A stretch of 64,000 nucleotides of DNA from Pseudomonadota bacterium (GTDB lineage Bacteria > Pseudomonadota > Gammaproteobacteria > Burkholderiales > Thiobacillaceae): NCBI GenBank assembly GCA_021802555.1, contig JAJZRU010000014.1:1-64000 (forward strand). Reading direction: 5' to 3'. Both the position numbers and the translations under genes were made by a program. The notes below the pieces were generated by a model. The model searched no databases and was not told where the DNA came from. It worked only from the letters and a program-made list of their open reading frames with translations. This document shows positions 5,109-15,517 of the stretch, one piece after another. The first letter of the stretch is position 1. Each line of letters starts with the position of its first letter.

Positions 5109-5969
5109 TCACTTCCGTGGCCGCCGCCCCTCCTCCCGCCCCAGCAGGCGGAGGCCTTCCAGGGCCTGCTCGACGCATCCCTCCGCACGCGCCAGGGGGA
5201 ACACCATATATGCCGGCAGCGTAAAGGGCGGGCCGTGCGGCACGCGGTGCAGGCGCTTGTTGCGCAGCGCCTCGCGCACCATGCGCAAGGGAAAATAGCC
5301 CGATCCGCCGCCGGCATCGAGGCGCTGCATCCCCAGCCAACCGATATTGGCGTACAAGGGCGGCGGCGGATGGTCGGGAAAGTGCACGGAAAACTGGTGG
5401 AAGAATTCCGGCCCCCAGTCCACGTGCACATAGTCAGGATCGGGCCAGGGGCACCGCGGGTCGGTGGACACCAGCACGAGCGTTTCGTCGAACAGGCGTT
5501 CGACCGCCAGGCCCGGGCGCGCCTCGGGCGTGTACAGGACGCCGACGTCTATGGTGTTGTGAATCAGCCCCTGCATGATGTCTGCTTCAAAGCCGATCTC
5601 CAGACGCAGCGAGATGGCGGGCGCGGCCTTGCGCATCCACGCCACCCAGCGCGGCAGGAAGCCTTCCCACAAGGCGATGCGGCCGGACAGCGTGAGGCCC
5701 GCCGAATAGCCTTCCGGCAGGCCGACATCCTGGCGCGCAATTTCCACCGTGCGCACCAACGCCTGGGCATGGCGCAGAAAGCGCTGCCCCGCGGCGGTAA
5801 GTTCGGCGCCGTGCTTGCCGCGGCTGAACAGCCGCGCCCCCAACTGGTTTTCCAACGCCAGGATGCGCGCGCTCACCGTGGACTGAGTGATGTGCAGCTT
5901 CTGCGCCGCACCGAGGAAATTTCCCGCCGCCACGACATGCAGGAAAGTGCGCGCTTGTTCCGTGTCCAT
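5109..5969 (-). CDS. LysR-family transcriptional regulator (divergent from DsrC-like gene)
   Basis: A 286-residue LysR regulator. Its HTH lies at residues 1-60 (ARTFLHVVAAGNFLGAAQKLHITQSTVSARI). The effector domain has ALWEGFLPRWVAWMR and the C-terminal lobe ending in a basic tail. It differs clearly from the LysR at 581-1489. It is divergent from a DsrC-like gene whose start is 149 bp away, so it may respond to sulfur status. That is inferred from position only. A 17 bp palindrome (5971-5987) abuts its start and no obvious Shine-Dalgarno lies between the palindrome and the ATG. Confidence 0.87.
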   Translation of the reverse strand: MDTEQARTFLHVVAAGNFLGAAQKLHITQSTVSARILALENQLGARLFSRGKHGAELTAAGQRFLRHAQALVRTVEIARQDVGLPEGYSAGLTLSGRIALWEGFLPRWVAWMRKAAPAISLRLEIGFEADIMQGLIHNTIDVGVLYTPEARPGLAVERLFDETLVLVSTDPRCPWPDPDYVHVDWGPEFFHQFSVHFPDHPPPPLYANIGWLGMQRLDAGGGSGYFPLRMVREALRNKRLHRVPHGPPFTLPAYMVFPLARAEGCVEQALEGLRLLGREEGRRPRK

Positions 5970-5970
5970 T

Positions 5971-5987
5971 TATCGAATAACCCGATA
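5971..5987. promoter_or_regulatory. 17-bp palindrome, candidate LysR operator
   Basis: TATCG-N7-CGATA with perfect 5 bp arms lies one base upstream of the second LysR start codon. This is the same offset and spacer length as the palindrome beside the first LysR gene, but with different arm bases. A further short perfect palindrome, CTTATATAAG, lies at 6013-6022 in the same divergent region and may overlap the promoter. Confidence 0.45.
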
Positions 5988-6118: not shown

Positions 6119-6442
6119 ATGACTACAGCAACGCTGCACATGAATCTCGACGAAGAAGGCTATCTCATCGAGCCCGGGGAGTGGACCGAAGACGCCGCGC
6201 AGGAACTGGCCCAGCGCGAGAACATCGAGTTGACGCCGGAACACTGGGACGCCATCCGCTTCATGCGCGAGTTCTACGACGAGCACCAGGTGGCGCCCGA
6301 CGCGCGCTTCGTCATCAAATATCTGAGCGAAACCAGCGGCGCGGACCGCAACGTGCTCTTCCGCCTGTTTCCCTATGGCTACGTCAAGCAGGCCTGCAAG
6401 ATCGCGGGCATGAAACGGCCGCGTGCCTGGAGCACCGGTTGA
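6119..6442 (+). CDS. DsrC/TusE-like protein 1, keeps only the inner cysteine
   Basis: A 107-residue protein aligned over its whole length with the DsrC/TusE family: DEEGYL near the N-terminus, ELTPEHWDAIRFMREFYDEHQVAPD, and LFPYGYVKQACKIAGMKRP. DsrC carries sulfur as a trisulfide between two cysteines of its mobile C-terminal arm. Here the inner cysteine (QACKIAG) is kept, but at the position eleven residues later, where DsrC and TusE have the penultimate Cys, there is Trp (RAWSTG). That is the reverse of TusE, which keeps the outer one. A good SD (GGAGG at 6109-6113) precedes the start. It could be a sulfur carrier with single-thiol chemistry or a regulator. Confidence 0.88.
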   Translation: MTTATLHMNLDEEGYLIEPGEWTEDAAQELAQRENIELTPEHWDAIRFMREFYDEHQVAPDARFVIKYLSETSGADRNVLFRLFPYGYVKQACKIAGMKRPRAWSTG

Positions 6443-6751
6443 CGCCGGGCGGTTGCACCCCAGCGGCACCCCTGCGCCCGGCATTCGTTCGTCCCCCAAA
6501 CACGCGGCCGCCAACCGCCGCGCACCGCGCACTGCCGGCAGACGGCCAACGCTCCGTTGAGCCCAGAAACCGCATCCGAGCCACAAAAGCACTGAGGAAG
6601 CTGCACCGCGATCGCGGCCGCTTATCGGGTGAATTTTATACGTCGCCGACCTATTGATTCCTTTTATCGTCCCGCCGGCGCAACTATGCCCTGAAGCAGA
6701 ACCGCCGCCATCCGTAAAATTATTCGAACCACGCAACGCCCAAAAACAATC
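6443..6751. other. 309-bp intergenic region between DsrC-like 1 and the HPP gene
   Basis: I see no convincing gene here. The first half is GC-rich with no long frame resembling a protein. From about 6630 the sequence becomes AT-rich (GTGAATTTTATACG, TTGATTCCTTTTATC, GTAAAATTATTCG) and probably contains the promoter of the HPP gene, but I cannot fix a -35/-10 pair. No hairpin followed by a T-run is present for the upstream gene. Confidence 0.5.
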
Positions 6752-7456
6752 ATGGAACTCTTGCTGAAAATATTCACCACGCCCACCGTAGGCCATCTCC
6801 CCATCCCGGGCCATCGCGAAAAATGGCTCTCCGGCCTCGGCGGTGTCGCGGGAATCGCCCTCACCGTGCTGGTGAGCCGCCTGGCGCTGGGGGAGCAGTT
6901 CGCGGTGCCGGTGGCGGCCTCCATAGGGGCGAGCGCGGTGCTGCTCTACGCCGCGCCCCACAGCGCCTTCTCCAGCCCCTGGGCGGTGCTGGGCGGCAAC
7001 GGTGTCTCCGCATTGATAGGCGTCGCCTGCGCCCTGCTGATCCCCAACCCGATCATGGCCGCATCGCTGGCCGTGGGGCTCGCCATCACCGCCATGTATT
7101 ACCTGGACTGCATCCATCCGCCGGGCGGCGCTTCCGCCTTTTTCGCCGTCATGGGCGGCCCCGCCGTGCACGCCCTGGGTTTTGACTATGTGCTTTTTCC
7201 CGTGCTGGTGAACGCCGCCATCCTGGCGGCCGCGGCGGTGCCGTTCAACAGGATTCTGCGCGCCAAGCAGGAAGCGCATGTCGTCGAAATCGAGTCGCAC
7301 CTGCATCTGCCGGAAAAATACCTCATCCGCCACAGCGACCTGGTGTATGCGCTTTCGGAAATCCAGTCCTACATCGACGTCAGCGAAGAGGACCTCATGC
7401 ACATCTACAACTTGGCGGTGCAGCACGCCCACCCAGGCAAAATCGCCAAGGCGTGA
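6752..7456 (+). CDS. HPP family integral membrane protein
   Basis: A 234-residue protein. An N-terminal four-helix HPP domain (about residues 25-160) bears the family signature CIHPPGGAS near residue 120. A cytoplasmic tail follows, with LPEKYLIRHSDLVYALSEIQSYIDVSEEDLMHIYNLA, which is conserved in this bacterial subfamily. A plant chloroplast HPP member has been linked to nitrite transport; for bacterial members substrate and direction are not established. It lies between DsrC-like genes but has its own upstream region, and it converges 12 bp from the molybdenum hydroxylase remnant. A Shine-Dalgarno is not obvious. Confidence 0.88.
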   Translation: MELLLKIFTTPTVGHLPIPGHREKWLSGLGGVAGIALTVLVSRLALGEQFAVPVAASIGASAVLLYAAPHSAFSSPWAVLGGNGVSALIGVACALLIPNPIMAASLAVGLAITAMYYLDCIHPPGGASAFFAVMGGPAVHALGFDYVLFPVLVNAAILAAAAVPFNRILRAKQEAHVVEIESHLHLPEKYLIRHSDLVYALSEIQSYIDVSEEDLMHIYNLAVQHAHPGKIAKA

Positions 7457-7468
7457 CGGAATGAGCCG

Positions 7469-7796
7469 TTACACCAGATCGAACGGCAGACGCGCGATGG
7501 CATTGGCATAGGCCGGCGCCAAAGGGGGCAGCCCAGGTTCCCCCATGCTCGTGGGCGAATCGAGACGGCGCGTGGGTTTGCCGATGAGCACGAAGTTCCG
7601 CGCCGCCGCCGCCACGAACATGGCGCGCGGGCGCCCAGTTCGCGGTATTGCAGCCACGAGTTCTTCACCAACAGGGAGCCGCCCTTCATCTGCATACCCA
7701 TGAACGGATCCTTGTAGGCATCGCCGGCCGGCGCCAGATGGGGCCGGATACGCGCCCAAGCGAAACCCTGCAGCCGTTAAGCTCGAACTCGATCAT
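7469..7796 (-). pseudogene. Decayed molybdenum hydroxylase (isoquinoline 1-oxidoreductase-like) remnant
   Basis: Three pieces in different frames are seen on the minus strand. ATG 7796, with a preserved GAGGA ribosome site, encodes MIEFELNG, the usual start of the [2Fe-2S] small subunit. After a deletion and frame change comes DPFMGMQMKGGSLLVKNSW and LQYRELGARA (about 7720-7630). After another shift comes MFVAAAARNF, then SMGEPGLPPLAPAYANAI to a TAA at 7469-7471. The latter two match the middle and C-terminal end of the large molybdopterin-binding subunit. A small-subunit start joined to large-subunit fragments implies large deletions within a former two-gene operon. No function is expected. 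Confidence 0.8.
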
Positions 7797-8035
7797 GGGG
7801 ATTCCTCGGCATGCGGCGTTTGGAAAGCACCGTCCCGGCACGAGAGGCGGCTCGCACAGGGGCTGGCATGCCCTACCAGATAAAACTAGGTTTTTTTGCC
7901 TCGATTGCAAGCAAGCGCCGCACGCCCGCGCGCCGGGCAGGCCGCCGGTGCCTTACCGCGCCAGGCGTAAGGCGTTAAACTTGTCCGCGATTAAGCCATG
8001 CTTCAATTTCCGCCAGCTCGTCCGCGCCCGACCCC
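7797..8035. other. 239-bp region upstream of the SUMF1-like gene
   Basis: It contains the old ribosome site and probable promoter area of the decayed hydroxylase on the minus strand and the leader of the SUMF1-like gene on the plus strand. An AT-rich patch (GATAAAACTAGG followed by seven T, about 7879-7897) has no stem before it, so I do not call a terminator. GTTAAACTTGTCC near 7974 could be part of a plus-strand promoter. No gene is supported. Confidence 0.35.
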
Positions 8036-8896
8036 ATGCCCGCCGCCGCTCCCCGCCTCCAGCTCTACGACACGTTCGCGCTCACCCCCGACGAACTCAA
8101 GGCGTTGCAGGAAGAAGCGGCCCACACCCTGTGCCTGCCCGGCATACGCTTCCGCGATGACATGGGCCCCGGGCTGTACGGTCCCGAGCTCATGGTCATT
8201 CCGCCCGGCCTGTTCGAGATGGGCGCGCCCAAGGACGAGATGCGCCCTAACGACCAGCCCCGGCGCCACGGCTATGTGAGCCAGCCGTTCGCTCTCGGCC
8301 GCTGCACCGTAACCACGGAAGAGTTCGAGGCCTATGCCCGTGCCACGGGCTGGACGCCGCGGCGCGAACTGGTCTGGCTGTCGGGGCGCTATCCCGTCAT
8401 CAATGTGCGCAAGGACGAAGCCGAGGCCTACTGCGCCTGGCTTAGCCGGCAGACCGGCCAGCGTTACCGCCTGCCCAGCGAAGAAGAGTGGGAGTTCGCC
8501 TGCCGCGTCGGCACCGCCACTGCCTATTTTTTCGGCGACCGCATCAACCCCGATCTGCTCCACTACAACGGCAGCACCAGCTTCAATGCGCGCGGCGGAC
8601 GCAGCCCGGGCCTGCTGTCGCGCTGCTTCTTCAACTGCCGCGCCGTAGAGGTCGGCAGCCTGCCGGCCAACCTGTGGGGCCTGCACGAGATGCACGGCAA
8701 CGTGTGGGAATTCACCACTACGCCCTGGGTGTGGGGCCGCATTCCGCACTACCCCGTCACCAAGAAGGCCGTGGTGAGCAAGGGCGGCTCATGGTTCGAT
8801 CCGCCCGAAGCGGCCCGCTCGGCCGCGCGCCGCCCGCGTCTGCTCGACGAGCTGGACCTCAACCTCGGCTTCCGCGTGGTGCGCGAAATCGTCTGA
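8036..8896 (+). CDS. SUMF1/PvdO-fold protein (formylglycine-generating enzyme superfamily)
   Basis: A 286-residue protein with the FGE-sulfatase fold from about residue 50: MVIPPGLFEMGAPKDEMRPND, RYPVINVRKDEAEAYCAWLS, YRLPSEEEWEFACRVGT, NLWGLHEMHGNVWEF, and VSKGGSWFD ... NLGFRVV. True formylglycine-generating enzymes carry two copper-binding cysteines shortly after the GGS motif. Here the corresponding stretch (SWFDPPEAARSAARRP) has none, so sulfatase activation is unlikely. Better comparisons are NirV, PvdO and other accessory members whose chemistry differs. No signal peptide is visible, so it is probably cytosolic. It lies 107 bp upstream of two DsrC-like genes. Confidence 0.85.
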   Translation: MPAAAPRLQLYDTFALTPDELKALQEEAAHTLCLPGIRFRDDMGPGLYGPELMVIPPGLFEMGAPKDEMRPNDQPRRHGYVSQPFALGRCTVTTEEFEAYARATGWTPRRELVWLSGRYPVINVRKDEAEAYCAWLSRQTGQRYRLPSEEEWEFACRVGTATAYFFGDRINPDLLHYNGSTSFNARGGRSPGLLSRCFFNCRAVEVGSLPANLWGLHEMHGNVWEFTTTPWVWGRIPHYPVTKKAVVSKGGSWFDPPEAARSAARRPRLLDELDLNLGFRVVREIV

Positions 8897-9003
8897 GCGC
8901 GGCGGCGCTTCGCATATTTCGCATATAAGGGATTGCTGGCCGCGCCGTTTGCCGCTGCATGCTATACCGGTAGCAGTTCGGCACACTTCTTGGGGAGACG
9001 GAC

Positions 9004-9333
9004 ATGGACATGCCGTCATCGCAGGCCAAGCGGCCGGAATTGTTCGATGCCAACGGCTTTCTGCGCAACGGCGGCGATTGGAACGAATCGCTGGCGCGCG
9101 AAATCGCCGCGCTCGACGGCCTCGGCCCGCTCACGCCGCATCACTGGAAAGTCATACAAGTGCTGCGCGCCCACTGGCGCGATTGTCAGTCGCTGCCTGC
9201 GCTCTCGCACGTCTGCCATCTTGCCGGGCTGCGCGGCGACTGCGTCAGCGCATTGTTTCGCGGCGCGCGCCACGCCTGGCGCATCGCCGGCCTGCCCGAT
9301 CCCGGCAGCGAAGCCCGGGCCTACCTCGGTTGA
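9004..9333 (+). CDS. DsrC-like protein 2, without C-terminal arm cysteines
   Basis: A 109-residue divergent DsrC/TusE relative: FDANGFLRNGGDWNESLAREI, PLTPHHWKVIQVLRAHWRD and ARHAWRIAGLPDPGSEARAYLG. The inner-cysteine position (QAC in DsrC) is Trp and the outer position is Glu, so the sulfur-carrier chemistry of DsrC is not possible through the arm. Three other cysteines (DCQS, HVCHLAG, GDCVS) lie in the middle. GGGGAGA about 4 bp upstream serves as ribosome site. It is followed by a third family member 15 bp later, almost certainly cotranscribed. A structural or regulatory role, as proposed for cysteine-less family members, is more likely. Confidence 0.82.
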   Translation: MDMPSSQAKRPELFDANGFLRNGGDWNESLAREIAALDGLGPLTPHHWKVIQVLRAHWRDCQSLPALSHVCHLAGLRGDCVSALFRGARHAWRIAGLPDPGSEARAYLG

Positions 9334-9348
9334 CCAAGGAGACGCATC

Positions 9349-9708
9349 ATGGACATCCTCACCAGCATAGACAAGGAAACCCGCCATGCCATCCCCGGCG
9401 ACCATTTGTGCGAACTGCCGGAATGGGACGAGGATCGCGGCCGCGCACTGGCGCGCGCCGAGGGCATCGGGCTCACGCCGGACCATTGGGAAGTGATTCA
9501 TTTCCTGCGCGAGCACTACGACCGCGAAGGCAACATCTGCAGCGGCACCGCCATGCTGCGCGCCCTGGGGGAACGCTTCGAGCACCAGGGCGGCGGCAAA
9601 TGGCTGTACACCCTGTTTCCCGGCGGCCCCGTGCATCAAGCCTCGAAAATCGCCGGCCTGCCGGAGCGGCCTTTCAGCGCCGACCGCTCCTTCGGCAGCG
9701 TGAGTTGA
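9349..9708 (+). CDS. DsrC-like protein 3, both arm cysteines replaced by serine
   Basis: A 119-residue DsrC/TusE relative closer to the canonical fold than its upstream neighbour: EWDEDRGRALARAEGIGLTP, DHWEVIHFLREHYDREGN, and LFPGGPVHQASKIAGLPERPF. In the arm, the inner position is Ser (QASKIAG) and the residue eleven positions on is also Ser, followed by an eight-residue extension (ADRSFGSV). It is thus an apparent double Cys-to-Ser natural variant. AAGGAG 11 bp before the start gives strong initiation. It ends 6 bp before the convergent acetyltransferase-mutarotase gene. I infer a non-catalytic partner-binding or antagonistic role. Confidence 0.85.
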   Translation: MDILTSIDKETRHAIPGDHLCELPEWDEDRGRALARAEGIGLTPDHWEVIHFLREHYDREGNICSGTAMLRALGERFEHQGGGKWLYTLFPGGPVHQASKIAGLPERPFSADRSFGSVS

Positions 9709-11504: not shown

Positions 11505-11963
11505 TTATTTTCCCCAGCAGTCAGTGGCCGTGGCGGTAGCCCCCACGACATTCTGCTGCCCCGTATTTGTAAGAGTGAAAGAACCGCATTCGTCGTTCGC
11601 CATGGGCCCTCCGGCCACCGGTTGTGCGGTGAGAGTAAAATCCATCGCCGGGTTGGTGTTAAACGCCACGCTGACGTTGTAGATAGCGGTGCCACTGACC
11701 GGCGCTTGCTGGATGATCTGAGTACTTGTCGCCGTCCCGTTGCCAGCCAGCGCCGTATTGTCATAGCGGTTTGCCGTCGTAAAGTTGCGCTCCAGGATAG
11801 TTGCATCCTGCAATAATACCGACTTCGCTTCCGAGCGATAGCCGCGTTTCACATAGGCCGAATAGCTGGCGTAAGCAATGGTCGATAGGATGGCGATCAC
11901 CGCTACAGTGACCATGAGTTCTATCAAGGTAAATCCGCGCTGTTTCACGACGGCCTCCTTCAT
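11505..11963 (-). CDS. pilE: Type IV pilin PilE-like protein
   Basis: A 152-residue class III prepilin. The leader MKEAVVKQRG is cut before FTLIELMVTVAVIAIL, which has Glu5 and the N-methyl-Phe position, and the globular domain ends with a Cys pair (ECGSF ... TDCWGK) forming the usual D-loop. The chosen ATG at 11963 overlaps the pilY1 stop (ATGA) and gives a 10-residue leader. PilE of this operon class is a minor pilin at the tip or base of the type IV pilus, not necessarily the major subunit. It is the last gene of the fimT-pilVWX-pilY1-pilE operon. Confidence 0.9.
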   Translation of the reverse strand: MKEAVVKQRGFTLIELMVTVAVIAILSTIAYASYSAYVKRGYRSEAKSVLLQDATILERNFTTANRYDNTALAGNGTATSTQIIQQAPVSGTAIYNVSVAFNTNPAMDFTLTAQPVAGGPMANDECGSFTLTNTGQQNVVGATATATDCWGK

Positions 11964-14900
11964 TGAATCTGACTCCACGACGCACGCGGATTGCCTTGTT
12001 TATTGAGTACTGACCAATTCTGAAGCGTATTGGAGGAGGAATTGGTCAGAGTTATCGAGGTGGCCCCATTGCTCAAAGTTACAGAAGAGGACGGGATGCC
12101 GCTGGTGATCTGCACCCCCGCTGCCACGCCCGGCGAGCCATTGGGCAGAGTGATGGACGGCGTGCTACCGTTGACGCTGAGGAAGGCCGAGGCCGGCGAT
12201 CCGCCGGTGGCGGGGTCCAGATAATTCTTCCAGCCAGTGCCGCCGTAGGCACACTGCCCGGAGTTGGGAATCATCGAGGTGAAGAGGATGTTCCCGCTGG
12301 GGTCGAACTGCGCCGCCAGCAGCACGCGCTCGCCGATGTTCGCCGTGCCGGTGGGTTCCAGCAGATCCATGTACCAGCCGTACTGGCTGCCGCCCGAGGG
12401 ATAGCTCACCGTGTTGGAACTGTAGGCGCGGTAGCCGCCCGATTCCGCCAGGATGGTCTGCTGCTGCAAGTTGCTGCGCGTGAGCTGCGACTGTCCGCCG
12501 CTGAAGGCCCCCGAGGCAAAGGTACTGCTGTCAAGCACGCCATAGAGTGTCTGCGTATTGGTATTGGTGGTGTCGGCAGGCGCCAGATACTGGCCGGTGC
12601 CGAAGAACACCAGCGCAGTGCCGGGCACGCCGCTGGGCACGCTGCCCAGCACGAGTGGCGCCGTGATGGGCTGCAGGTTGCCGGCGCTGTCCTTAGCGGT
12701 GAACAGGGGTAACGGCGCACCCTTGTTCGACCCAGAAGCCACCGTGAAAGCCACGCCCCATTTACTGGCGTTGGTATTGCTTACATCGAACTTCCACACA
12801 TTGCCGCAGAGATCACCCGCATAGATGGCATCGATGGTGCCGTTCTGGTCGGCGTCCACCAGCGCGGCGGGTGAGAGACCATCGGCGCTACACCCGCTTG
12901 GCGGGCCGCTGGGCGTGGCATCCAACGCAATGACCTGTGGCCCGCTGCCGCCGGGCACGTAATTCACCGGGATGAGGAACAGCACGGCGTGGCCGCTCGT
13001 CGAATCGTAGCCGTTGCTGACCGCGGCATAGTAGTTGCCGTCGTTGAAGCGCGCAATGACGGGCGGACCCCAAGTGTAGCCCATCTCGCTGGCGAAGGTG
13101 GCGTAGTTCGGGTCCAAGGTATTGGGAAACTCCCACAGCACGGCGCTAGAGGCATTGCTTTGGGTGTCCTGCAGCGGATTGGTCACGTCCATGGCAAACA
13201 CGGAAGGGCCACCGCCCCCCAAGGTACCCACCAGCACGGTGTGCCAAGTGGGTGTGGCGCCGCCCAAGCCATAGAAAGCATCGCCTATGCCGGGGGTACC
13301 ATCCACGTAATAGCGATGGTTGGCGTTGTATGAGGTCTGCGTGAGGGCGGGTAGATTAGCGTACACCGCGCTGGGGACGTAGGCAAAGAGCTCCTGACCG
13401 GGGGAAGCGCCCGAAGGGCAATTTCCGGAGGCGCAGGCTGCAAAAGCATGCAGCATGCCATCGTTAGCGCCCACGTAGATCATGGGCAGATAAGTTGAAC
13501 TATATTTATTCTGCACATAGGCCAGATAGCTGGAGCCCTCGGTGCCAGGGAGCACGCTGTAGCCGTAGTCCTGGGTACCGGCGTACAGCGGGTTGGAATC
13601 GACGATGTCGCCCAGCAGATCGGTGCGCGTGCGGAAAGCCGTGCTCACCTGATAACCGCGCACATAGTGCAGTACGTTCTGGCCGTTGGTCACATCCGTG
13701 CCGGTAAGCGTGCAACCCGGCGCCAGCCCAGCCAAGAGGCATTGCTCGTTGTTGCTCAGCGCGGTGCTGCTGGTCCAGTGGAAGGCCACCCCAGTCGCGG
13801 TACTGTCGTTATAGGTGAGGAGGTTGCGGTTGACCGGTGCGGGAATCTGGTTGGCCGCATCCCAATACACCGTTGCCGTATTGGTCGCGCTCTCAGCCTG
13901 CAAGTGTCCAGACCAGTCCGCCGTGTCGTAACTGGCCTGATACACCGCCGTGGTGCTGGCGTACTGGGTGGAGTTGGACGTTAGCGCGGCCGAGGAGCCG
14001 GATTTCTGCAGGATGGAGTTGAAGATGGTCTGTAAATTTTGCTGTATCGCGGCCGGATTGTCGGCGAGGAAGGACTGCCCCGAACCGCCCGCCGCCGCAA
14101 GGGCATCGAGCGGATTGCCGCTTACCCCGCAGGAGTTGTCAAAATAGTCTTGCGCGTAAGTGGTCAGCTCGTAGCCGGCAACGTAGAGTGTGGGGCCTTT
14201 GCCGCCGTTGTAGAGACTGCCTGCGGCAGTGATGGCATTCTGCATCATGCTGCACGCGCTGGTGGTGGTGGCATCATCATTCACGCTGGGCAAGCCATTG
14301 GAAAACAGCACCACGTAATTCTTGCTGCAGGAATTCGGAATGGTGTACCCGGAAGGCGCGCCCTTGCTGGTGGACAGGCTGCCCTTGAAGTACGTGGCGG
14401 CATCCTCCAACGTGCCCTGGATGGCGGTGAGCCCGGAGTTGAGAATGCTGCTGCTGCCCTGACCGGCCGGCGTGGAGTTGCTGTTGCAGGTGCCGGAAGT
14501 AGGAGTCGGGTTGGGCAGCGGAGCATTGGCTGGCGCCGTCGGTACGTTGCAAGTCAGCTTGTTGTTGATCGTCGACTGCTGGGTCGACGTCAGGGTTGCA
14601 AGCGGCACCTGCAAATACCCCCCGCCGGGCGAGTTGTTATTGAACCAAGCGGTGGAGGTATAAACCGAGGGGATGCGCTGGCCGAAGTCCACGATGTTGT
14701 TCGCGTAGTCGCTGTCGGTCGGAACGAAACCGGAACTGAACAGATAATTAGAATACAAGGCACCAGCGCTGCCAGGTGCGCCATCGGTGGTGCCAGCACC
14801 CAGGTTTGCCCAGCAAGAATAATTGTCCGATCCCGCAGGAATATTCGTGGTGTTGTCGAACTTTGCGGTGGAGGAATAGCAGAAGCTGGCCAGCGTTGGT

Positions 14901-15517
14901 GTTGAGCCATCATAAAATGGCGAGGCGTAATTGTAATACGCCGTGGCATTGCCTGGAATCTGAGCCTGGAACAGCTTGGTGGTGGCGGCACGGCACTGGA
15001 TGGCCGTCCACCCTGCCGTGCCGGTTGAAGCCGACGGGCATTGGAAGTTTGGGTTGTAGTTGGCCGGATTGTAGCTCGAGTCGTAATACGAGTTGTACAT
15101 GTAGATCATGTTGGGGCTGTACTGCGCAAAAGTCATCAGCCCGAGGTTGATCTGCCCCATGTAAGTCGTTTCCAGGCTGCGTATGGCAGCGCGCGCGATC
15201 TCGGATTTGCTGTACTGGCTGCTGCCGCCGATGGCGGCGCCTATCATGCCCTGCGAGGGATCGCCGTTCTCGTCCATGTTCTGCGAGTTGGCGAGGATGA
15301 ATAACACATTGGGCGGCACACCACTGCCCAGATAAAGCGGCATGTTGTTGATGCAGGTACCCCCTTGGCTGTTGGCGCAAAACGAGTTTGCACCCCAGGC
15401 CGGGCTTGTAGTGGCAAGCAACAATACCAGAAGGGCGCGCAGCCAAGCGGCGGTCTTGGTGTGCGCCTGATCCAGGGATGGCTCGATCCTGTGCTGTAAA
15501 ACCCCAAGTGTAGCCAT
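11960..15517 (-). CDS. pilY1: Type IV pilus tip adhesin / calcium-binding protein PilY1
   Basis: A 1185-residue exported protein: signal peptide around residues 25-43 (LRALLVLLLATTSPAWG), an N-terminal von Willebrand A-like half, and a C-terminal seven-bladed propeller typical of PilY1. A calcium loop is visible near residue 887 as DADQNGTIDAIYAGDL. The usual MIDAS opening DxSxS (NVLFILDNSGSM in many homologues) reads NVLFILANSQNMD here (residues 70-82), losing the first Asp and the last Ser. PilY1 opposes PilT-driven retraction and can act as adhesin or surface sensor. The gene lies between a small exported protein and pilE in the minor-pilin operon. Confidence 0.92.
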   Translation of the reverse strand: MATLGVLQHRIEPSLDQAHTKTAAWLRALLVLLLATTSPAWGANSFCANSQGGTCINNMPLYLGSGVPPNVLFILANSQNMDENGDPSQGMIGAAIGGSSQYSKSEIARAAIRSLETTYMGQINLGLMTFAQYSPNMIYMYNSYYDSSYNPANYNPNFQCPSASTGTAGWTAIQCRAATTKLFQAQIPGNATAYYNYASPFYDGSTPTLASFCYSSTAKFDNTTNIPAGSDNYSCWANLGAGTTDGAPGSAGALYSNYLFSSGFVPTDSDYANNIVDFGQRIPSVYTSTAWFNNNSPGGGYLQVPLATLTSTQQSTINNKLTCNVPTAPANAPLPNPTPTSGTCNSNSTPAGQGSSSILNSGLTAIQGTLEDAATYFKGSLSTSKGAPSGYTIPNSCSKNYVVLFSNGLPSVNDDATTTSACSMMQNAITAAGSLYNGGKGPTLYVAGYELTTYAQDYFDNSCGVSGNPLDALAAAGGSGQSFLADNPAAIQQNLQTIFNSILQKSGSSAALTSNSTQYASTTAVYQASYDTADWSGHLQAESATNTATVYWDAANQIPAPVNRNLLTYNDSTATGVAFHWTSSTALSNNEQCLLAGLAPGCTLTGTDVTNGQNVLHYVRGYQVSTAFRTRTDLLGDIVDSNPLYAGTQDYGYSVLPGTEGSSYLAYVQNKYSSTYLPMIYVGANDGMLHAFAACASGNCPSGASPGQELFAYVPSAVYANLPALTQTSYNANHRYYVDGTPGIGDAFYGLGGATPTWHTVLVGTLGGGGPSVFAMDVTNPLQDTQSNASSAVLWEFPNTLDPNYATFASEMGYTWGPPVIARFNDGNYYAAVSNGYDSTSGHAVLFLIPVNYVPGGSGPQVIALDATPSGPPSGCSADGLSPAALVDADQNGTIDAIYAGDLCGNVWKFDVSNTNASKWGVAFTVASGSNKGAPLPLFTAKDSAGNLQPITAPLVLGSVPSGVPGTALVFFGTGQYLAPADTTNTNTQTLYGVLDSSTFASGAFSGGQSQLTRSNLQQQTILAESGGYRAYSSNTVSYPSGGSQYGWYMDLLEPTGTANIGERVLLAAQFDPSGNILFTSMIPNSGQCAYGGTGWKNYLDPATGGSPASAFLSVNGSTPSITLPNGSPGVAAGVQITSGIPSSSVTLSNGATSITLTNSSSNTLQNWSVLNKQGNPRASWSQIQ

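Follow-up and report, generated by a model that had tools for sequence, protein, structure and literature searches.

A DsrC-fold protein, P1, encoded in a 64,000-nucleotide stretch of a Thiobacillaceae genome (contig JAJZRU010000014.1, positions 1 to 64,000; the window), belongs to a widespread clade that keeps the inner cysteine of the DsrC C-terminal arm and carries tryptophan in place of the outer, sulfur-carrying one. Genes of this clade are often, not universally, linked to genes for the handling of nitrate, nitrite and nitric oxide (NO), here called N-oxides. We propose, with a probability of about 0.38, that the clade is a dedicated DsrC mimic that carries no sulfur, docks into a client of DsrC and gates that client while nitrate, nitrite or NO is handled. 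P1 and two further DsrC-fold proteins, P2 and P3, are encoded as follows.

6119..6442, plus strand: P1, Cys/Trp-clade DsrC-fold protein, 107 aa (PF04358 110 bits; fold match to 1sau and 1yx3; trees)
6395..6397, plus strand: P1 inner-arm Cys codon (alignments; arm-pattern match starting at 6389)
6428..6430, plus strand: P1 Trp codon, at the position of the sulfur-carrying outer Cys in DsrC (alignments)
9004..9333, plus strand: P2, Trp/Glu-clade DsrC-fold protein, 109 aa, with a shortened hairpin (PF04358 55 bits; tree clade)
9349..9708, plus strand: P3, DsrC-fold protein of the class ending in SFGSV, Ser/Ser arm, 119 aa (PF04358 81 bits; alignment, tree)

Arms, fold and ancestry of P1, P2 and P3

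The original prediction read three DsrC-fold open reading frames here with inner/outer arm residues Cys/Trp, Trp/Glu and Ser/Ser. Pfam searches and alignment to the genome's own canonical DsrC bear this out, all three proteins scoring above the gathering cut-off of the Pfam DsrC family PF04358 (24.9 bits), and the arm of P1 reads KQACKIAGMKRPRAWSTG. Aligning the three proteins with the genome's canonical DsrC, and with 145 DsrC-like places taken from fetched stretches among the matches listed, rules out a mis-registration of the arm residues. None of the three proteins has both arm cysteines or lies in a dsr operon, as DsrC in the strict sense does; P1 to P3 are on contig C37 and the canonical dsrC is on contig C16. 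Nor do they have the outer cysteine that marks TusE, this position being Trp in P1, Glu in P2 and Ser in P3, and their scores against the TusE equivalog are 83.8, 31.9 and 66.5, respectively, vs a cut-off of 191. P2 additionally scores 47.1 against the NCBIfam TusE/DsrC model, whose cut-off is 53.5.

The motifs HWD, LFPYG and KIAGLP, taken earlier to remain, are only partly kept: P1 has KIAGM, and P2 has HWK and has lost the LFPYG hairpin. The wider idea, that structure has been kept while the sulfur-carrying chemistry was removed, stands on the preserved fold of the P1 model, the absence of the outer cysteine and purifying selection. An AlphaFold model of P1 (predicted local distance difference test score, pLDDT, 84; low confidence in the C-terminal W-S-T-G) superimposes on 1sau and 1yx3 with template modelling (TM) scores, by query, of 0.82 and 0.78, and a fold search with this model returned eight DsrC/TusE chains at E < 0.001. 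Pairwise ratios of nonsynonymous to synonymous substitution (dN/dS) against the nearest relative are 0.024 for P1, 0.17 for P2 and 0.11 for P3; the canonical dsrC genes of the same two genomes give 0.035, in a calculation whose dsrC frame took in 7 codons ahead of the start. P1, P2 and P3 are under purifying selection; pseudogenes are ruled out by these values, and decay is unsupported.

The host genome (2.77 Mb, 48 contigs, completeness 99.99) encodes eight DsrC domains, five of them outside the P1–P3 cluster. Whether canonical genes were also present had been left to be checked, and they are: dsrC on C16 stands in a reverse-dsr (rDsr) operon among genes that we read, by inspection, as dsrAB, dsrEFH and dsrMKLJOP. 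The remaining domains comprise a tandem fusion with arms Thr/Asp and Ser/Cys (239 aa; L010:6682-7401, contig C5, about 14687-15400), a Val/Lys-arm protein with 17 relatives (L011:9961-10401, contig C6), and a short Thr/Cys-arm protein behind an ABC transporter pair (L012:7207-7500, contig C45). By gene names assigned by inspection, the Val/Lys class in relatives lies near dsr genes in divergent orientation, with a rhodanese-like gene behind it, and the Thr/Cys protein is kept in several relatives. None of the eight domains is of the TusE-like KQAGRYAGTPKPTGC type.

When 41 related genomes were searched with Pfam, 26 gave DsrC matches, namely all 25 of the family (the host included) and one other. 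The 145 aligned places fall into about eight arm classes: Cys/Cys, TusE-like Gly/Cys, Cys/Trp (P1), Trp/Glu (P2), SFGSV-ending (P3, the SFG class), Val-Ser-Ala/Lys, Asn/Glu and Thr/Cys. We then built a quick tree of 186 rows, having dropped rows with X or fewer than 85 residues and held named Cys/Trp loci to a maximum of five per context. A single branch splits off every class but SFG (3 changes, two SFG members having been labelled 'other'), with support of 91 for Cys/Trp, 99 for Trp/Glu (a 14-row clade) and 99 for Asn/Glu. Because the classes had been named by their arms, we built a second tree without the arm (167 rows, taking every third named Cys/Trp locus); the same seven classes each again occupy one branch side, with support of 96 for Cys/Trp and 5 changes for SFG, the few columns (120, or 100 without the arm) leaving deeper forks unresolved. 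As judged from these trees, P1, P2 and P3 descend from three old lineages, each within its own clade, and are not recent decayed copies. Three separate clades give no support to the suggestion of a single set whose cysteine losses complement one another.

The Cys/Trp clade and its N-oxide neighbours

P1 has the inner Cys, the AGM and the outer Trp of the Cys/Trp class and falls within this single clade in the alignment and in both trees. Scanning named genomes with P1, we took the best 80 of 339 loci encoding a relative; with the window added, inner Cys and outer Trp are present in 81 of 81, in a scan that ranks by likeness to P1 and in which one of the six seed words spans the inner Cys. In the set of relatives collected by Pfam only, the inner Cys is present in all 18 class members and the Trp in 17. 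Mean entropies, computed without any filter on the arm, are 0.11 for the arm vs 1.20 for the core among the 81 named-locus sequences (window included), 0.46 vs 1.33 among the 18 members of the relatives set and 0.21 vs 1.27 with both sets pooled; canonical DsrC gives 0.06 vs 0.60 (n = 23). The arm of the P1 clade is far better conserved than its core, near the level of DsrC in the named set and less so in the relatives set.

Of 117 Thiobacillaceae genomes, 71 contain a DNA pattern that covers the Cys and GM of the arm, without the Trp, and 0 contain its reversed control; genomes with the titles Gallionella, Sulfuritalea, Sulfuricella and Ferrovum also have the clade. An arm with the inner cysteine alone had been thought unusual; by the 81 loci, these 71 genomes and the tree it is the signature of a widespread clade. 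Clade carriers almost always have dsrA: 34 of 37 genomes do (29 over the cut-off and 5 as fragments, the other 3 giving weak matches), the 37 tracing back to 38 of the 80 loci, for the most part loci not titled Thiobacillus. A phage origin is not supported: no clade relative appeared in one scan of viral_contigs, and the best match in a phage record is 43% identical. A plasmid collection gave 18 matching records, of which the annotated ones among the 15 matches listed are TusE.

The genes next to P1 in the window recur beside its relatives.

5109..5969, minus strand: LysR-family regulator, divergent from P1 (Pfam HTH_1 69.5 bits, LysR_substrate 58 bits)
5972..5986: putative LysR operator ATCG-N7-CGAT between lysR and P1 (from sequence; binding is inferred)
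6752..7456, plus strand: HPP-family membrane protein, putative nitrite transporter (TM_HPP 146 bits; conserved beside P1-type genes)

The divergent LysR gene, already named in the original prediction, is confirmed by its Pfam matches; the HPP gene, like an FGE-like gene further along, was absent from that prediction. We assigned neighbour contexts to the 81 loci by clustering open reading frames and searching representatives against Pfam and NCBIfam. HPP is found in 17 loci, the P1-HPP arrangement thus being common to the window and 16 others, and 15 of the 17 (the window and 14 others) have a divergent LysR gene of the same cluster. According to excerpts of PMC4137279, a plant HPP protein expressed in a cyanobacterium transports nitrite. 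The palindrome ATCG-N7-CGAT lies upstream of the P1-type gene in 15 of the 17 HPP-type loci, window included, a count that does not amount to 15 independent events since these loci are related; on this pattern, control of P1 by the divergent LysR is predicted. Four of the 17 also have an NsrR-like Rrf2 gene upstream (133 bits vs an NsrR cut-off of 182). FNR/DNR boxes, considered as a common control of P1-type genes, are unsupported, 11 of 76 upstream regions having one with at most 2 mismatches; they stand clearly above shuffles in the MarR-type group alone (5 of 8 vs 1.2).

Three further contexts were recognized. An SQR-like gene (SQR, sulfide:quinone reductase) and/or narI is present in 16 of the 81 loci, 13 of which also have NnrS; within limited flanks, narG, narH, narJ and narI clusters occur in 11, 13, 10 and 14 loci. 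Ten loci have MarR, a Yip1-domain gene or nrdD, mostly with DUF2249 and hemerythrin, and in five an ANTAR regulator accompanies an NMT1_2 gene, the two being read by us as NasT- and NrtA-like. Two open reading frames without a Pfam match (426 aa, L161:6329-7606; 376 aa, L160:3250-4377) recur near DUF2249, hemerythrin and DsrC-like genes.

As a control for linkage, we asked which DsrC-like genes with at least 4 kb of flank (16 of the 145 places lacked enough) lie no more than 4.5 kb from a nar, NnrS, HPP, hemerythrin, NsrR-like or NMT1_2 gene. Such a neighbour accompanies 27 of 30 Cys/Trp and Asn/Glu genes vs 2 of 99 genes of other classes, the two exceptions being a relative of P2 near a sister genome's HPP gene and another gene near an Rrf2 gene. 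Leaving HPP out, the counts are 7 of 17 for Cys/Trp, 10 of 13 for Asn/Glu and 1 of 99 for the other classes. The Cys/Trp and Asn/Glu clades are linked to nitrate/nitrite/NO genes, the former often in Thiobacillus and not universally.

The nar operons themselves come in two kinds. Among narG matches over about 1180 bits in the 117 family genomes (three fragments sharing a contig with a DsrC site were added outside the counts that follow), scores separate type a (> 2100 bits, n = 30) from type b (1850-2000 bits, n = 35). Of the 30 type a genes, 20 are followed on the same strand by a Cys/Trp DsrC gene at a distance of 4.9-5.3 kb, and 0 by an Asn/Glu gene. Behind type b narG, an Asn/Glu gene lies 3.3-4.2 kb downstream in 20 of 35 and a Cys/Trp gene in 2 of 35. 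By their coordinates, 7 of the 10 type a misses and 7 of 13 type b misses end at a contig boundary, calls that leave out the room behind one miss (G109). The Asn/Glu clade, which has no arm Cys, sits directly behind narI in its nar operons, and in genome G128 a Cys/Trp gene occupies this very slot. At one contig end (G131, contig C37, 376-10765), two narG genes that differ in type stand in tandem.

Between narI and the Cys/Trp gene lies the SQR-like flavoprotein.

L165:4326-5873: SQR-like flavoprotein in a nar operon
L223:5019-6548: SQR-like flavoprotein in the nar operon of the window organism (contig C31)

This protein resembles type I SQR over its whole length (E 7e-106 to that of A. ferrooxidans); unlike SQR, it has other residues at the positions of Cys128, Cys160 and Cys356, which we take to be the redox cysteines, in 20 of 20 copies (16 and 4 further ones, the latter including the window genome's own nar operon, and some copies perhaps coming from the same species). 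With all three replaced, a transfer of sulfide sulfur from SQR to P1 within the nar operon is ruled out.

P2, P3 and other genes of the window

Ribosome-binding-like sequences precede P1 (ggagga), P2 (ggggaga) and P3 (aaggag). P2 and P3 are spaced by 15 bp and are probably co-transcribed. The double Ser of P3, earlier called unusual, is a local variant: in the alignment, most members of its class have Cys at the inner position, and some have Ser or Met. Upstream of the pair lies one further gene.

8036..8896, plus strand: FGE-like (SUMF1-fold) protein, upstream of P2/P3 (PF03781 144 bits)

This gene is kept upstream of P2/P3 in two sister genomes, and its homologues adjoin a TusE-class gene in six further genomes, in two of them together with an SFG-class gene. 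FGE needs a cysteine pair, and the C-terminal stretches examined of the FGE-like proteins contain no cysteine. P2 and P3 are probably docking or regulatory proteins as well, with a client other than that of P1. Elsewhere in the window, a PilY1-type type IV pilus protein is encoded on the minus strand at 11960-15517, and the next gene in its direction is a pilin-like open reading frame (11505-11978) with a QRGFTLIELMVTV stretch near its start.

A proposed docking role for the P1 clade and its rivals

P1 resembles DsrC of the rDsr pathway in its fold, its HW..R core and the arm KQACKIAG, and is 41% identical to the genome's own DsrC; it differs in the Trp for outer Cys, a loop 3 residues shorter and a gene outside the dsr operon. 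With TusE of the tRNA 2-thiouridylation relay P1 shares the fold, but the cysteine pattern is reversed, TusE having the outer Cys and no inner one in the excerpted text of PMC3397948, and the TusE-like genes of the family form a clade separate from P1 in the trees. The SUP05 phage dsrC_1, as excerpts of PMC4164917 present it, likewise lacks the second C-terminal Cys; it is without the 7-8 residue insertion, whereas P1 is short by 3 residues alone. Phage DsrC proteins counted in PMC8190135 include one with the first Cys motif only and 5 with neither, and four extra DsrC copies of A. vinosum have a role described as still to be established (PMC3368242, in part). RspA-type cysteine-free DsrC homologues may correspond to the Asn/Glu, Val/Lys and P3 states; the literature searched yielded no reference sequence or text for them. 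DsrC relatives short of one Cys are thus already known in general. The literature searched, mostly without subscription papers and so compatible with an earlier mention, gave no account of the Cys/Trp clade, its link to nitrate/NO genes or the SQR without redox cysteines.

P1 has retained the body of DsrC, and its arm is under strong selection; with Trp at the position of the persulfide-carrying outer Cys, it cannot run the DsrC sulfur cycle. We propose that its arm instead docks into a client of DsrC, blocking or regulating it when nitrate, nitrite or NO is handled. Since nearly all carrier genomes tested have dsrA, a client of DsrC is the probable partner, and the neighbouring genes make nitrate, nitrite or NO the probable signal. 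Siroheme sulfite reductases bind nitrite and NO too; for this reason, together with the dsrA distribution, the likeliest client, as a guess, would be the siroheme channel of DsrAB, and the rDsr pathway would be gated during nitrate/NO respiration. In the window, P1 would work with the putative nitrite transporter of the HPP family under the predicted control of the divergent LysR. The arm register, the P1 fold model, the clades, arm conservation, linkage and the palindrome are observed; client, blocking and N-oxide control we infer. Regulator, decoy and single-thiol carrier had all been raised as options before; a regulator or decoy is now favoured, a single-thiol carrier is less likely for P1, and the N-oxide link of the Cys/Trp and Asn/Glu clades had not been foreseen.

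Several observations weigh against a docking mimic tied to N-oxides. No N-oxide context of the four types surrounds 33 of the 81 Cys/Trp loci (LOG/homoserine kinase 5, DUF2844 7, MFS 5, MarR 9, other 7), two of which (L180, L219) do have NnrS, and the list of neighbour genes was compiled after those of P1 were known, which makes the linkage control partly circular. The window organism's own nar operon consists of narGHJI and the SQR-like gene with no DsrC gene behind, and 16 of the 71 Cys/Trp genomes have no narG match of at least 129 bits; those 16, many of them drafts, rule out a strict dependence of the clade on Nar. Within the relatives set, Leu replaces Trp in 1 of 18 class members and only 7 of 21 arm columns reach 97% of one residue. 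The shorter loop of P1 precedes the hairpin and may touch clients, and the conservation of the inner Cys points to some importance of a thiol in the clade.

That thiol is central to a single-thiol relay, in which P1 would hold a persulfide, nitrosothiol or mixed disulfide on its conserved Cys and deliver it to, or receive it from, an enzyme or sensor of N-oxides. The inner Cys in 81 of 81 loci and 18 of 18 relatives would suit it, as would the NO-related neighbours NnrS, hemerythrin, NsrR-like Rrf2 and DUF2249 (one with a TusA match); yet the Asn/Glu clade occupies the same nar slot without an arm Cys, and the SQR-like neighbour lacks the sulfur cysteines. Moreover, the outer Cys, which the DsrEFH-DsrC interaction needs according to excerpts of PMC3397948, is Trp in P1. 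We regard such a relay as unlikely. The Asn/Glu class favours binding over thiol chemistry, and binding without sulfur transfer is the simplest property common to both clades behind narI.

Binding might equally be directed at nitrate reductase, P1 and the Asn/Glu proteins serving, in the manner of NarJ, as accessory subunits or maturation factors of NarGHI or its neighbours without any contact to Dsr proteins. Gene order speaks for this, the genes lying on the same strand directly behind narI (Asn/Glu) or behind narI and the SQR-like gene (Cys/Trp), so that one slot is used by two DsrC clades. P1-type genes also occur away from nar, however, that of the window among them, and their near restriction to genomes with dsrA would be needless for a role in Nar only; we consider this account doubtful. 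An action of the helical part of the DsrC fold on promoters is improbable: DNA binding by DsrC has been proposed, and winged-helix chains do appear low in the P1 fold search, but at E-values of at least 2, that is, as noise, and conservation peaks in the arm, the end of which the model shows as disordered. That these are functionless, degenerating surplus dsrC copies is hardly credible, eight DsrC domains in one genome and the sub-threshold NCBIfam score of P2 being outweighed by dN/dS of 0.02-0.17, an arm conserved over many hosts, and conserved neighbours and palindrome.

The docking mimic can be carried further, into a version that we hold to be unlikely: Trp-for-Cys DsrC mimics, evolved in chemolithotrophic sulfur oxidisers and made together with N-oxide enzymes, would plug the docking channel of DsrAB, shield its siroheme from nitrite and NO and switch sulfur flux during denitrification, the nar operon having also recruited a cysteine-stripped SQR. 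The cysteine-free SQR is a second clue to the re-use of sulfur-handling folds in nitrate respiration. These findings bear on the balance that sulfur oxidisers strike between sulfur flux and denitrification, and on why they have so many DsrC paralogues. Many DsrC-like genes may be wrongly labelled 'sulfur relay protein'. The P1 clade hints that sulfur oxidation may be linked to nitrate respiration at the level of control, and it offers a concrete set of genes for deletion and docking tests.

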